DNA of 64,000 nt from NCBI RefSeq assembly GCF_018141445.1, contig NZ_CP058649.1, positions 1,817,001 to 1,881,000 on the forward strand, in the 5' to 3' direction. This DNA is from Vallitalea pronyensis (GTDB taxonomy: Bacteria; Bacillota; Clostridia; Lachnospirales; Vallitaleaceae). Position numbers and translations under genes: made by a program. The notes beneath the pieces are model-generated. The model was not told where the DNA came from. It ran no database searches and worked only from the letters and a program-made list of their open reading frames with translations. Below, piece by piece: positions 10,387-52,620 of the stretch. Position 1 is the first letter of the stretch, and each line of letters opens with the position of its first letter.

Positions 10387-11448
10387 ATGAATCCCATTAT
10401 TGAACAGATTTTCGATTTTTTAACGATGTATGTAGGTGAAGGTATAGCCAAATTTTTAGCACCTGTTTCGGTTTTTGCAGCAGCTGTCCTTTTGTACTTT
10501 ATGGTGCTTATGTTGTTGAGAAGGTTTGGTGTTATTGCAAAAGAAACAAAAGATTTTTATGCATTTATTGCACCTTGGCTATTTGGATTTATTATCTTTA
10601 CATTGGGAACCATGAGCTATTCCTTATATATATCTTTTTTTGAATGGGACCTCATTGGCGAAAAAGTGTTCATCGGCCTGGACAATTATCAACAAGCCTT
10701 TTTTAACGATAAAATATTCTATGGATCACTAGGTGTTACGTTCTATTATGCCATCATTAGTATTCCCTTACAGCTGGTATTAGGCTTTTTAGTGGCTATG
10801 CTCATGAATCAAAAAGTGAAAGGCATCGCTATATTTAGAACCATATACTATCTGCCAACCCTTGTTGCAGGGGTTGCTGTCAGCGTGTTATGGATGTGGA
10901 TTTTTAATGGTAATTTTGGTTTGATTAATCGCTTCCTATTGCTATTTGGTATTTCAGGACCTGATTGGCTGAATAATGAACAGACGGTCATGCCGGCATT
11001 AGTCATCATGAGCTTGTGGGGTATAGGTGGCAGTATGATTATCTACCTTGCAGGACTGCAGGACATACCACGATCACTCTATGAAGCAGCAGAGATTGAT
11101 GGTGCTACCACTTTTCATAAGTTTAAAAATATTACGATTCCTATGATGACACCTATTTTGTTCTTTAATTTAATCATGGGTATTATTGGTTCACTTCAAA
11201 CATTTACACAAGCCTATGTGATGACAGAAGGTGGACCTAATGGAGCTTCTATGTTCTTTGTGCTCCATATTTATAAGAATGCTTTTGAGTATTTTAATAT
11301 GGGTTATGCGGCAGCCTTATCATGGATATTGTTTTTCATTATTCTAGCCATTACCTTACTGGTATTAAAATCTTCATCCTTATGGGTATTCTATGAGTCA
11401 GAGTTAATGAAGGATAAGAAGAGAAAGAAGGTGAAAAAGGATGCGTAG
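10387..11448 (+). CDS. Sugar ABC transporter permease (MalF type, extended N-terminus)
   Basis: Membrane permease of 353 residues. About 60 extra residues at the N-terminus contain one additional membrane helix (residues about 25-45) before the usual six-helix BPD_transp_1 core, giving seven helices. The EAA loop reads SLYEAAEIDGATTFHKFKNI. GAAGGAG precedes the ATG. It overlaps the next permease by eight bases. Together they form the channel for the binding protein at 8905. No ATPase gene is present in the operon. Confidence 0.92.
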   Translation: MNPIIEQIFDFLTMYVGEGIAKFLAPVSVFAAAVLLYFMVLMLLRRFGVIAKETKDFYAFIAPWLFGFIIFTLGTMSYSLYISFFEWDLIGEKVFIGLDNYQQAFFNDKIFYGSLGVTFYYAIISIPLQLVLGFLVAMLMNQKVKGIAIFRTIYYLPTLVAGVAVSVLWMWIFNGNFGLINRFLLLFGISGPDWLNNEQTVMPALVIMSLWGIGGSMIIYLAGLQDIPRSLYEAAEIDGATTFHKFKNITIPMMTPILFFNLIMGIIGSLQTFTQAYVMTEGGPNGASMFFVLHIYKNAFEYFNMGYAAALSWILFFIILAITLLVLKSSSLWVFYESELMKDKKRKKVKKDA

Positions 11449-49004: not shown

Positions 49005-49997
49005 TTAACTTAATGTGGCATAGATAACAGCTTTAATGGTATGCATCCTGTTTTCAGCTTCATCAAACACAACAGATTGCTTGGATTGGAAGACCTCATT
49101 GGTGACTTCCATTTCCGTGATACCAAATTTCTTGGCCATTGCATGGCCGATGGTTGTGTTCGTATCATGAAAAGCAGGTAGACAATGCATAAAAATGGCT
49201 TGCTCATTCGCATACTTCATCACATCAGCATTGACTTGATAATCTTTCAGTAATTTAATCCTCGTTTCCCATACATCATCAGGTTCACCCATGGACACCC
49301 AGATATCGGTATAGATAATATCTGCTCCCGTTGAACCTTCTTGAATATTGTCAGTTAAGTGAACGGTACAATTATTTTCTGCTGCATATGCTTTTGCTTT
49401 AGCAACCAATGCCTCATCTGGGAAGAGTGCCTTAGGCGAGCAAGCGGTGAAATGGATACCCATCTTTGCACATGCAATCATTAAAGAGTTACCCATGTTA
49501 TTTCTTGCGTCACCCATATAGGTGAAATGAAGCCCTTGCAGTGTACCAAATTTTTCTTCAATGGTTAACAAGTCTGCTAACATTTGTGTGGGATGAAAAT
49601 CATCCGTTAAGCCATTCCATACAGGAACGCCTGCGTTATTTGCAAGTGTTGTCACAATGTCTTGGCTAAATCCTCGATACTCAATACCATCGTATAAGCG
49701 TCCTAATACTTTTGCTGTATCGGCGATACTTTCTTTTTTACCCATTTGAGAACTGTTGGGATCAAGATATGTCACCCCCATGCCAAGATCCATACCAGCC
49801 ACTTCAAAGGAGCAGCGTGTTCTGGTGGACGTTTTTTCAAAAAGTAAAACCATGTTTTTTCCTTGTAGGTAACAGTGAGGTGTACCGCTTCGCTTTAAGT
49901 CTTTAAAGTTTTTAGATAAATCTAAGAGATAGCGAATCTCTTCTTGGGAATAATCAAGCAGTGTTAAAAAATGTTTACCTTTAATTGAAATAGCCAT
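49005..49997 (-). CDS. argF: Ornithine carbamoyltransferase
   Basis: Cytoplasmic enzyme of 330 residues joining ornithine and carbamoyl phosphate to citrulline, or the reverse in catabolism. The carbamoyl-phosphate motif STRTR is at 57-61, HPTQ at 135-138, the ornithine-loop SMG at 235-237 and HCLP at 271-274, all intact. An upstream in-frame Met exists, but AAGGAG is placed for the start at 49997. Sequence motifs do not separate anabolic ArgF from catabolic ArcB. A carbamate kinase gene nearby, with a regulator between them, favours the catabolic direction (ArcB). No arginine deiminase gene is present. Confidence 0.93.
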   Translation of the reverse strand: MAISIKGKHFLTLLDYSQEEIRYLLDLSKNFKDLKRSGTPHCYLQGKNMVLLFEKTSTRTRCSFEVAGMDLGMGVTYLDPNSSQMGKKESIADTAKVLGRLYDGIEYRGFSQDIVTTLANNAGVPVWNGLTDDFHPTQMLADLLTIEEKFGTLQGLHFTYMGDARNNMGNSLMIACAKMGIHFTACSPKALFPDEALVAKAKAYAAENNCTVHLTDNIQEGSTGADIIYTDIWVSMGEPDDVWETRIKLLKDYQVNADVMKYANEQAIFMHCLPAFHDTNTTIGHAMAKKFGITEMEVTNEVFQSKQSVVFDEAENRMHTIKAVIYATLS

Positions 49998-50015
49998 GTT
50001 TAATCTCCTTATCAT

Positions 50016-50376
50016 CTATTGATTTCATATCTTCAAGCCAGCCTTTCTGGTGGTTGATATGACTTGCACTTAGTATATAAAAAAAATGGACCCTATGTTA
50101 GACATTAGAAAATAGAATTCATGTATTTTCATGTTGACATAAAAGGTATAAGGTGATTGTCTATGGTATTTTTTGGTACCGTTTTTGAGTAATTTACCGC
50201 ATAAAATAAATGGGTAATAAGTGATATTAGGCCATCTAGCTAAATAGATGAATAGTAAGTGGATAACAGGTTGCTATGGAAATACAAGAAACAAACATCC
50301 AAATGTCCCATAGAAAATTGACAAGAAATCATCCTTCCTATATAGTGAAATTAAACAGTCGATCGAGGTGTTTGTT
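50016..50376. promoter_or_regulatory. Divergent control region between argF and the double-AraC gene
   Basis: About 360 bases with no gene. It holds the consensus promoter of the downstream regulator at 50318-50346 and a stretch at 50115-50133 that on the minus strand reads CATGAAAATACATGAATTC. The latter resembles an ArgR box (13 of 18 positions by eye). No hairpin or riboswitch is evident. Confidence 0.4.
50318..50346 (+). promoter_or_regulatory. Promoter of the double-AraC regulator gene
   Basis: TTGACA (50318-50323), a 17-base spacer and TATAGT (50341-50346), 31 bases before the start codon at 50377. Confidence 0.75.
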
Positions 50377-51630
50377 ATGAAAAATATCATTAATATACAA
50401 AGTCAATATCGCTCAGAATATGACCATCGTTCCATATGCAGTTTTGATGTGGAAGTCATTGAAGAGCCAACAAAACCATTAATACACCAAATGTCTAGAT
50501 TTTTGTTAATTAATGAAGGACATGGGCATTTAAGGTTACAGGGAAAAGAATATGTATTAGAGCCAGGAACCGTGGTTTCCATACTTCCATGGCAAACCTC
50601 TGACATTTTTGAAGTGACCGAACCATTACAGTTTTTTCTGTTAAAATATTATTTTGATGGTGTCAATAACATCATGAAATCCTTTTACAACAACAGCAAT
50701 GATCCTATTCATATCACCAATGACTTAACCAATATGCCGGTTATCCATTGTGATAAGGAACAAGGGGGCATCATGCATCAGCTTTTCAAACAGATTCATA
50801 GTGAAATTGGTATGGAATCCACCATTGATACGAAACAGGGAAAAGATTTAAGCAATATCTATTTAACTAATAAAATTGTGGAGATCATGATTCAGTTCTA
50901 TCGTTTTGGTAAAGATAATATGGAAGAGAACCATGAGACATCCCATACCATTGATAATGCTGAAATCATACAGTATATTTATAATCATCTTAGTGATAAA
51001 CTGACCCTGAAGAAATTATCCCGTATTTTCTATCTAAGTGAGTCGTCCATCAGTCATTATATTAATAAAACCACTGGACTGTCTTTTTTTGATTTGCTTA
51101 ACGAAATGCGTATAGGTAAAACCATTAATTTCCTTTTGTACACGGATTTTACCATGGAAGAACTTGCAGAAATACTGGGTTTTGTGGATGGAGCACATAT
51201 TAGTAAAGTATTTATGGCCAGAATTGGCATGAAAGCCAATGAGTATCGAAAAACCTATCAAAAGGTAAATGATATTTGTAAGATAAAGGAGACAAAGGCT
51301 TCTTTTGAGATTGTTGACTATATTTATCGTTATTATATGGAAGAGCTGACACCCAAACTTGTTGCGGATCACTTTAATATATCCGTTAAAAACCTGAATA
51401 AAATTCTGCTCTATCAAGTGGAGAAAAACTATGAAGATTTTTTGAATGCTGTTCGTATTAATCGGGCAAGTGAATTATTACTATCCACAGATATGCGCAT
51501 TACGGATATAGCCATTGAGGTGGGTTATAATACATCAAAAACCTTTACACGCAATTTCTTAAAACTGCGATTAATGACCCCAGGGGTATTTAGACAAACC
51601 GTTGAGTTACAAGAAGCAGATATTGACTAG
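50377..51630 (+). CDS. Regulator with two AraC DNA-binding domains
   Basis: Cytoplasmic regulator of 417 residues. The N-terminal 150 residues are a cupin-like sensor (GHGHLRLQGKEYVLEPGTV). Two complete AraC-type double-HTH domains follow: residues about 193-290 (LTLKKLSRIFYLSESSISHY ... NEYRKTY) and about 309-408 (LTPKLVADHFNISVKNLNKI ... MTPGVFRQTV). AraC proteins normally have one. A GTG at 50368 is in frame, but GAGGTG fits the ATG at 50377. It lies between argF (divergent) and carbamate kinase (31 bases downstream), so it probably controls this amino-acid or carbamoyl-compound pathway. Confidence 0.9.
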   Translation: MKNIINIQSQYRSEYDHRSICSFDVEVIEEPTKPLIHQMSRFLLINEGHGHLRLQGKEYVLEPGTVVSILPWQTSDIFEVTEPLQFFLLKYYFDGVNNIMKSFYNNSNDPIHITNDLTNMPVIHCDKEQGGIMHQLFKQIHSEIGMESTIDTKQGKDLSNIYLTNKIVEIMIQFYRFGKDNMEENHETSHTIDNAEIIQYIYNHLSDKLTLKKLSRIFYLSESSISHYINKTTGLSFFDLLNEMRIGKTINFLLYTDFTMEELAEILGFVDGAHISKVFMARIGMKANEYRKTYQKVNDICKIKETKASFEIVDYIYRYYMEELTPKLVADHFNISVKNLNKILLYQVEKNYEDFLNAVRINRASELLLSTDMRITDIAIEVGYNTSKTFTRNFLKLRLMTPGVFRQTVELQEADID

Positions 51631-51660
51631 CGTCGAATACATGTTATGGGAGGAATTGTT

Positions 51661-52620
51661 ATGAAACACAAAAACGCAATACCAAGAGTTGTCATTGCAT
51701 TAGGCGGCAATGCATTAGGTAAAACACCTGAGGAGCAAAAGATAAAAGTCAGAAATGCAGCAAAATCTCTAATTGAGTTGATTAAACAAGGGAATGAGAT
51801 CATCATCAGCCATGGAAATGGTCCCCAAGTTGGTATGATTAATATAGCTTTTGAAGAGGCTTCAAAGCATAATGACAAAATTGCTTCCTTTGATTTACCA
51901 GAATGTACAGCAATGAGCCAAGGTTACATTGGGTTTCATTTGCAAAATGCGTTGCAAGCGGAGATTTATGCTCAAAAAAAACCATGGTATGTAGCAACAG
52001 TCGTCACACAGATTGAAGTGGATAAGGAAGATAAAGCTTTTAAAAACCCAACCAAGCCTATTGGCAGTTTCTATACAGAAGAAGAAGCAAAAACCATGAT
52101 GGCATCGGACCCATCCTTGGTGATGAAGAAAGATGCAAACCGAGGTTACCGCAGAATGGTACCCTCCCCAAAACCTGTGCGTATTCTAGAAAAAGAGTCA
52201 GTTGTCAGCATGTTAGACCATGAATTTATTGTGGTGACCTGCGGCGGTGGCGGTGTCCCCGTTGTAAGAGAAGAGGACGGCAGTTACCATGGTGTGTCCG
52301 CAGTCATTGACAAAGATTTTGCATCGGGTATATTAGCAGAATCTGTTCATGCCGACTACTTGTTTATCCTTACAGCAGTTGATCGGGTGGCTATTCATTT
52401 TGGAACACCTGAACAACAAGACCTGCCCAAAATGTCTGTAGAAGAAGCAGAAAGATATTGTGAAGAAGGTCATTTTGCATCAGGCAGCATGCTTCCAAAA
52501 GTTCAAGCTGCCATCTCATTCGTAAAAGCTGGAGAGGGCCGAAAAGCCGTCATTGCTTCCCTTGAAAAAGCACCGTTAGCTATTAAAGGTGAAAGTGGTA
52601 CGATTATTTATAAGGATTGA
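51661..52620 (+). CDS. arcC: Carbamate kinase
   Basis: Cytoplasmic enzyme of 319 residues of the amino-acid-kinase family. It makes ATP from carbamoyl phosphate. Signatures are VIALGGNALG at the start, SHGNGPQVGM near residue 50, VTCGGGGVPV, and ASGSMLPKVQAAISFV near the C-terminus. GGGAGG precedes the ATG at 51661. With ornithine carbamoyltransferase it forms the energy-yielding half of the arginine deiminase or a citrulline/carbamoyl pathway. Confidence 0.95.
   Translation: MKHKNAIPRVVIALGGNALGKTPEEQKIKVRNAAKSLIELIKQGNEIIISHGNGPQVGMINIAFEEASKHNDKIASFDLPECTAMSQGYIGFHLQNALQAEIYAQKKPWYVATVVTQIEVDKEDKAFKNPTKPIGSFYTEEEAKTMMASDPSLVMKKDANRGYRRMVPSPKPVRILEKESVVSMLDHEFIVVTCGGGGVPVVREEDGSYHGVSAVIDKDFASGILAESVHADYLFILTAVDRVAIHFGTPEQQDLPKMSVEEAERYCEEGHFASGSMLPKVQAAISFVKAGEGRKAVIASLEKAPLAIKGESGTIIYKD

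Follow-up and report, generated by a model that had tools for sequence, protein, structure and literature searches.

Regulators of the AraC type abound in bacteria and act mostly as activators; the way in which their two chains divide two half-sites on DNA is a textbook question. The Escherichia coli protein occupies I1/I2 and loops to O2 in the descriptions given by PMC4486848 and PMC8151288. Within the window, the whole stretch of 64,000 nucleotides of Vallitalea pronyensis DNA analyzed here, one gene encodes an AraC-type protein with two complete DNA-binding domains, which raises the question of whether a single chain reads a two-part site that ordinarily takes two chains. If nature has produced such a protein with a definite operator, stoichiometry, spacing, and looping become open to direct tests, and the arginine fermentation of Lachnospiraceae and Oscillospiraceae gains a candidate regulator together with its target sites.

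AraC-type regulators are a known kind of protein; a single-chain tandem variant equipped with a candidate operator of its own looks new against the open literature. Searches of that literature for tandem or double AraC domains and for AraC-type control of the arginine deiminase (ADI) pathway turned up no title or abstract describing a protein of this sort, which is weak evidence given that subscription journals mostly lie outside it. The phrase “two AraC-type DNA-binding domains” in PMC10710014 is the COG2169 name of an Ada fragment and was rejected as a precedent.

Domain architecture of the regulator

The open reading frame, its coordinates and strand, and its neighbors are as the initial annotation gave them (Table 1). 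The ATG at 50377 is preceded by a ribosome-binding-like GAGGTG at 50365-50370, with which an alternative in-frame GTG at 50368 overlaps. Pfam HTH_18, the model used to judge AraC/XylS membership, matches 2 stretches of the whole protein (E 3.8e-31), and each domain taken alone exceeds the curated cutoff of 33.6 bits: domain 1 with 52.9 bits over about residues 214-292 and domain 2 with 61.7 bits over residues 330-407. An AlphaFold2 model (mean pLDDT 79.7, pTM 0.47) agrees with this reading of 2 complete DNA-binding domains in one chain, showing one beta-rich N-terminal domain followed by 2 stretches of seven helices each (about 195-301 and 307-408); at a pTM of 0.47, the domains are fairly sure and their mutual arrangement is not.

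The N-terminal part had been described as a single cupin domain. That it is one beta-rich domain of AraC/BgaR-like fold was borne out, with matches to the regulatory domains of BgaR, RhaR, and AraC in a fold search (target TM about 0.62-0.74), whereas the cupin label finds only weak sequence matches, below Pfam cutoffs; the ligand-binding and dimerization domain expected of the AraC/XylS family is thus recognized by fold. The regulator departs from the usual, if not strictly defining, family norm of one DNA-binding domain per chain. A profile of 5 relatives matched 20 PDB sequences at E ≤ 0.001, each over one stretch, so that none of those 20 shows 2 AraC domains.

Table 1. Features of the regulator gene, its neighbors, and candidate control sites in the window.
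Feature	Position	Strand	Basis
argF/arcB, ornithine carbamoyltransferase	49005..50015	-	TIGR00658, 419.5 bits (cutoff 280.85); divergent from regulator
argF -10 hexamer, TATACT	50072..50077	-	Conserved offset, site positions 56-61
Composite operator candidate for argF, ATGAAAATAC-N18-TGTCTAAC	50097..50132	-	Score 14/18 against family consensus
Composite operator candidate, regulator/arcC promoter, ATGGAAATAC-N18-TGTCCCAT	50276..50311	+	Score 13/18
Regulator promoter, TTGACA (50318-50323), 17-bp spacer, TATAGT (50341-50346)	50318..50346	+	Alignment
AraC-type regulator gene, 417 aa	50377..51630	+	Open reading frame, translation, HTH_18 twice, model and fold search
N-terminal AraC/BgaR-like regulatory domain	residues about 1-182		Fold search on predicted model
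DNA-binding domain 1	residues about 194-301; coding stretch 50956..51258 (residues 194-294)	+	
DNA-binding domain 2	residues about 307-408; coding stretch 51301..51600 (residues 309-408)	+	
arcC, carbamate kinase	51646..52620	+	TIGR00746, 362.5 bits (cutoff 358.25)

Distribution of relatives and linkage to arginine deiminase genes

A single pattern-based scan covering contigs from 84,980 genomes yielded 40 loci, 39 of which encode near-full-length relatives, one of them (L069) split by a frame change; a 53-residue match in Flavobacteriales (L075) was dropped. The 41 full-length proteins that we aligned comprise the scan relatives, the window protein, the G011 protein (L034), and a second copy in L053; L069, lying in 2 frames, was excluded from protein alignments and retained in locus counts, and L031 and L036 are the same locus, counted as L031 for sites and as L036 for linkage. 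All 41 carry 2 domains according to a model built from these domains, and the survey for homologues that the initial annotation had suggested thus returns 40 other full-length proteins with the same layout. Identity to the window protein runs from 79% to 37% across 39 of the 41.

The distribution of the family is patchy. Within the family to which the window belongs, 4 of 22 genomes carry the regulator, the source genome counted among them, and it was seen in none of the 5 other genomes of the genus; it was found in at least 7 of 391 genomes of a class sample (at most 4 candidates per genome scored), in 10 of 392 of an order sample, and in 10 of 397 of a sample of one other family. Among the matches listed for the class sample, the weakest of the 7 relatives has E 7.6e-62 and the best other protein, a single-domain one, E 8.2e-27. 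No relative was confirmed in the viral contigs searched, and none was found in 30 genomes of the order of G136, a set that includes no known carrier to serve as a positive. The G000 genome is very rich in AraC-type domains, with 191 candidates; all 150 that were scored lie above the HTH_18 cutoff, and by eye, none of these 150, a list that does not include the window protein, has a same-strand neighbor near enough for a tandem.

The location between argF and arcC holds by model matches to both neighbors (Table 1). The longest arcC open reading frame begins 15 bp past the regulator stop, or 30 bp past it if the ATG at 51661, preceded by GGGAGG, is the start, and the 2 genes are likely on the same transcript. 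Linkage to the pathway recurs among the relatives: arcA (TIGR01078), otc, or arcC lies near the regulator in 25 of 40 loci (L034, L036-L074), a count that leaves out the carbamoyltransferases 53% identical to argF in L064 and L065, and linkage rises to 28 of 40 when a nickel-pincer-dependent ornithine cyclodeaminase-like gene (NF052526) is included. Among 9 further loci used as a hold-out (4 new and 5 distant, none of them close; L101-L105, L168-L171), where the regulator is 30-47% identical to that of the window, all 9 carry arcA, otc, or arcC, and on this genetic linkage the protein would count as a candidate regulator of the pathway. The locus DNA examined contained no arcA, otc, or arcC in 15 of the 40 loci and none of these or the cyclodeaminase-like gene in 12, some contigs being short, so that not every copy of the regulator need serve the arginine pathway. 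Two adjacent ornithine-cyclodeaminase-like genes lie near the regulator in both G119 (L105 8951-11169) and G011 (L034 14409-16777).

A candidate two-box operator

Alignment of the DNA upstream of arcA in 18 loci revealed TGTATTTTAAC, then its reverse complement downstream, with a GGAC/GTCC box outside each. Read from the center outward, each arm has the form GTTAAAATAC-N18-TGTCCGAC, a 36-bp candidate operator. With the gap of 18, there are 35 sites scoring at least 15/18 in the 481,388 bases of 41 loci, against 0-3 such sites (14 in all) for each of 22 other gaps from 8 to 30, a comparison that is not fully independent because the consensus was drawn from some of the scored loci. At a score of at least 14, there are 46 sites, compared with 13 in five rounds of first-order Markov resampling. 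Of these 46, 27 lie within 400 bp upstream of arcA (7,230 bases; expected 0.039), covering 15 of 19 loci, and 12 within 400 bp upstream of the regulator (15,760 bases; expected 0.085), 9 of the 12 in loci outside the alignment that gave the consensus; for L057, the start of arcA was placed manually at 10800, the likely ATG by sequence being within a few bases. The other 7 sites lie elsewhere (expected 2.5), 3 of them preceding an otc or cyclodeaminase gene. Altogether, 28 of the 41 loci have a site scoring at least 14, and the remaining 13 have none in the locus DNA examined, partly because contigs end.

The two boxes, GTTAAAATAC and TGTCCGAC, differ from each other, and their centers are about 27 bp apart. 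This is beyond the reach of one AraC domain on DNA and hence too far for the 2 HTH motifs of a single domain.

In the window, each of the 2 divergent promoters has one candidate site, both with weak scores, and L031, L037, and L056 have sites at places matching these two. The regulator promoter is kept in 3 aligned relatives (L036, L037, L056). In G008 (L031 952-6085), argF is separated from the regulator by 4 genes that we read as an ABC transporter and a two-component system, with one site remaining on either side of the block, a layout that suggests a separate target gene for each site. The block looks as if inserted into the shared argF/regulator promoter region.

Three other loci have sites in settings of note. 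L072, in whose locus DNA no arc genes were seen, has 2 strong composite sites (5832 and 8313) upstream of what we read as amidohydrolase-like and 3-hydroxyisobutyrate-dehydrogenase-like genes; the same operator may thus serve another pathway there. In G211 (L136 1501-1536), a 16/18 site precedes an alanine-racemase-like gene by about 54 bp, with no -10 hexamer at the usual offset. In L069 (5929-7582), where the regulator lies in 2 reading frames, a 16/18 site remains upstream of arcA.

Promoter geometry and inverted pairs

We sorted the sites, with the 13-point site of the window added, into promoter-side and outer ones from gene positions. A TATAAT-like hexamer (at least 5/6) begins at site position 56 in 22 of the 34 promoter-side sites and at position 55 in 4 more; none of the 13 outer sites has one at that offset. 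This places GTTAAAATAC around -67 to -58 and the TGTCC box around -39 to -32. The TGTCC box thereby overlaps the usual place of the -35 hexamer, where the consensus is CCGACA and no good -35 is found. The -10 hexamer of the regulator's own promoter is displaced outward by one helical turn, to 66-67, in 4 loci (the window, L031, L037, and L068) and not in the fifth, L062.

The arms of each pair face outward, and 12 of 19 arcA loci have both arms scoring at least 14, 78-101 bp apart. In 8 lineages, one per group and of our choosing, the distances are 69, 79, 79, 79, 89, 90, 92, and 101 bp, giving R 0.88 at a period of 10.5 bp (simulated p 0.0004 against a uniform spread over 60-110). The value is R 0.84 (p 0.0075) for the 6 lineages left when the divergent-gene pairs L062 and L068 are removed, R 0.76 (p 0.0015) when the window (144) and L037 (51) are added to the 8, and R 0.66 (p 0.0006) for all 16 pairs, near-copies included; the 4 divergent-gene pairs alone carry no signal (R 0.69, p 0.15). 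The period is loosely fixed (R 0.84-0.89 across 10.25-11), and equal distances in relatives may be inherited rather than independent. Judged from these spacings, the pairs look helically phased.

Proposed mechanism

We consider it probable, at roughly 60%, that the protein is a local regulator of the ADI pathway, probably an activator, of which one chain occupies each two-box operator and two chains bridge paired operators. In the window, it would control argF/arcB in one direction and, in the other, its own gene together with arcC. A pathway metabolite, for which arginine, citrulline, and ornithine are guesses, would probably be sensed by the N-terminal domain, which, on the strength of its fold, may dimerize as in AraC. 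We infer that the 2 DNA-binding domains of one chain read one rigid 36-bp GTTAAAATAC-N18-TGTCCGAC site, one domain per box, so that one chain would fill the stretch that two AraC chains fill at araI1-I2. With the TGTCC box over the -35 place, the C-terminal domain would adjoin RNA polymerase. Two chains joined through their N-terminal domains could hold two operators at once, and the inverted pairs seen upstream of arcA, with their apparent phasing, would follow from this; a rigid gap within the site combined with variable, apparently phased distances between sites fits one chain per site with bridging by a dimer. The suggestion that the protein might bind a paired site as a monomer or bridge two operators therefore fares well in part: the gap-18 two-box sites and the inverted, seemingly phased pairs point to both, and the site is unrecognizable in distant relatives.

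A wider formulation, which we hold only tentatively and at somewhat less than even confidence, is that a widespread clostridial lineage made the two-chain operator reading of AraC into a single-chain one, with 2 diverged domains on a rigid, asymmetric 36-bp operator and dimers (8 HTH motifs) bridging 2 such operators on one helix face, and that this arrangement would control arginine fermentation.

Against 12 of 110 positions in the N-terminal domain, 32 of 101 in domain 1 and 19 of 100 in domain 2 are conserved in at least 95% of the 41 proteins; by this measure, both DNA-binding domains are strongly constrained. Two chains might nevertheless read the two boxes, each mainly by one domain, while the other domain dimerizes or contacts RNA polymerase, a reading that we regard as unlikely. 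Of the four recognition helices, the first one in domain 2 shows the weakest conservation and lacks any invariant residue (mean entropies 1.12 and 0.86 in domain 1, 1.32 and 0.91 in domain 2), and AraC itself places two chains on adjacent I1 and I2 in the accounts of PMC4486848 and PMC8151288. However, the second recognition helix of each domain contains residues that never vary among the 41 proteins (D271, H274, K277, and F279 in the second HTH of domain 1; K388, T389, R392, and F394 in that of domain 2). The initial annotation had allowed that one domain might have lost its DNA contacts; judged by conservation only, neither has. The domain 2 helix SKTFTRNF also aligns with the similar QQTFTRVF of RamA. 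Furthermore, an ordinary homodimer reads one motif twice, whereas the boxes here, GTTAAAATAC and TGTCCGAC, are unlike and about 27 bp apart, a layout more readily matched by two differing domains than by one domain present twice.

A second alternative, compatible with single-chain reading, concerns the sign of control: the protein may be a repressor that, from its site over the -35 region, keeps RNA polymerase out until an amino acid effector lifts the block. A TGTCC box at this position can block as well as activate, and inverted pairs would suit a repression loop such as the one that AraC forms without arabinose as described in PMC8151288. Activation is the better match to the promoter side, where the TATAAT-like hexamer stands at a fixed offset and is accompanied by CCGACA instead of a good -35 hexamer. 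A -10 hexamer lacking a good -35 is usual for activator-dependent promoters, and repression of the pathway promoters seems to us improbable. By contrast, the regulator's own promoter, with its full TTGACA, could be repressed.

Control loci and the identity of the binding protein

It is also conceivable that the composite site belongs to another arginine regulator, for example one of ArgR/AhrC type, and that the tandem AraC protein acts elsewhere. ADI genes are indeed targets of ArgR/AhrC, CcpA, and ArcR according to PMC4813224. The distribution of the sites makes this quite doubtful. Sites lie beside the regulator even at loci in which clustering detected no arcA, otc, or arcC (L062, L065, L072), with the caveat that L065 does have the carbamoyltransferase related to argF. 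For controls, we took the best 30 of the loci from 71 arcA genomes of the class sample, 26 of them from genomes in which the regulator was not found, and in all 26 of these arcA upstream regions (500 bases) the site is absent, the best score being 12; most of these loci share 50-60% identity in arcA with the query (two share 74-75%), so that the controls differ from the regulator loci in lineage too. To our knowledge, the boxes resemble neither the ARG box nor cre.

The remaining comparisons delimit where the site can be recognized. No full site occurs at the 4 arcA loci from genomes with a distant or unlinked regulator; in one of these genomes, G437, TGTCCTAC is retained together with a perfect TATAAT at the expected offset. 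The composite site scoring at least 14 is absent from all 9 more distant loci, while the TGTCC box and the -10 hexamer at the same offset persist in some distant loci (L103, L074). The window genome's own arcA, 2.4 Mb away, has no site (maximum score 11). Across 12 genomes, near matches with at most 3 mismatches number 1-4 per genome with or without the regulator, and they are no commoner than matches to the reversed pattern, which gave the larger total; the site is therefore informative only at the regulator and arcA loci examined, and a genome-wide regulon drawn from the site pattern was rejected.

Relationship to known regulators

It is highly improbable that the protein is an ordinary AraC-type regulator whose second domain copy is a neutral duplication relic: tandem duplications are common in general, and a pTM of 0.47 gives no fixed arrangement, but both copies are strongly constrained and persist in 40 other full-length proteins, the most divergent of them 37-38% identical, and a domain tree (84 rows; 98 columns, few enough to be only indicative) puts domain 1 and domain 2 on separate branches, as befits an old pair. 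A recent internal duplication was rejected on the same tree, which does not group domain 1 with domain 2.

Among characterized systems, E. coli AraC (araI1-I2, araO2) is alike in its N-terminal and DNA-binding folds, and differs in having one DNA-binding domain per chain and like half-sites, whereas the window regulator has 2 domains and unlike boxes. The AraC spacing is 21 bp, against about 27 bp between box centers here. A further likeness is the operator beside the RNA polymerase site and the paired, possibly looped sites, as described for AraC in PMC8151288.

The ArgR/AhrC and ArcR families are unrelated to the AraC-type regulator, and Pseudomonas aeruginosa ArgR has one DNA-binding domain. 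ArgR/AhrC and ArcR (Crp/Fnr) share its target, the ADI operon, in the account of PMC4813224, which also presents P. aeruginosa ArgR as an AraC/XylS-type protein tied to arc genes; the latter comes from a different host group. Lactobacillus reuteri PocR is likewise AraC-type and a reported regulator of arginine catabolism genes among others, but has 364 aa and is encoded in the pdu-cbi-hem-cob cluster according to PMC4122935, and the window protein falls outside the PocR model (NF047788; 81.1 bits, cutoff 500). The best NCBIfam match, to AryK (NF047455), is also far below its cutoff (116 bits against 850), as is that to Rsp (NF033869; 62 bits against 400); these staphylococcal proteins share the AraC domain with the window protein, and their models are longer (759 and 701 positions, respectively).

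A second lineage of tandem AraC-domain proteins was seen in G022 (L008 1438-2658; 406 aa) and G039 (L005; open frame of 317 aa). No arc genes were recognized by eye in 16 kb beside L008. These proteins resemble the window regulator in carrying 2 AraC domains in tandem per chain, and differ from it in sequence, the L008 protein being 19% identical, and in their domains, which lie on separate branches; the G022 protein has an N-terminal domain, and the G039 protein is shorter.
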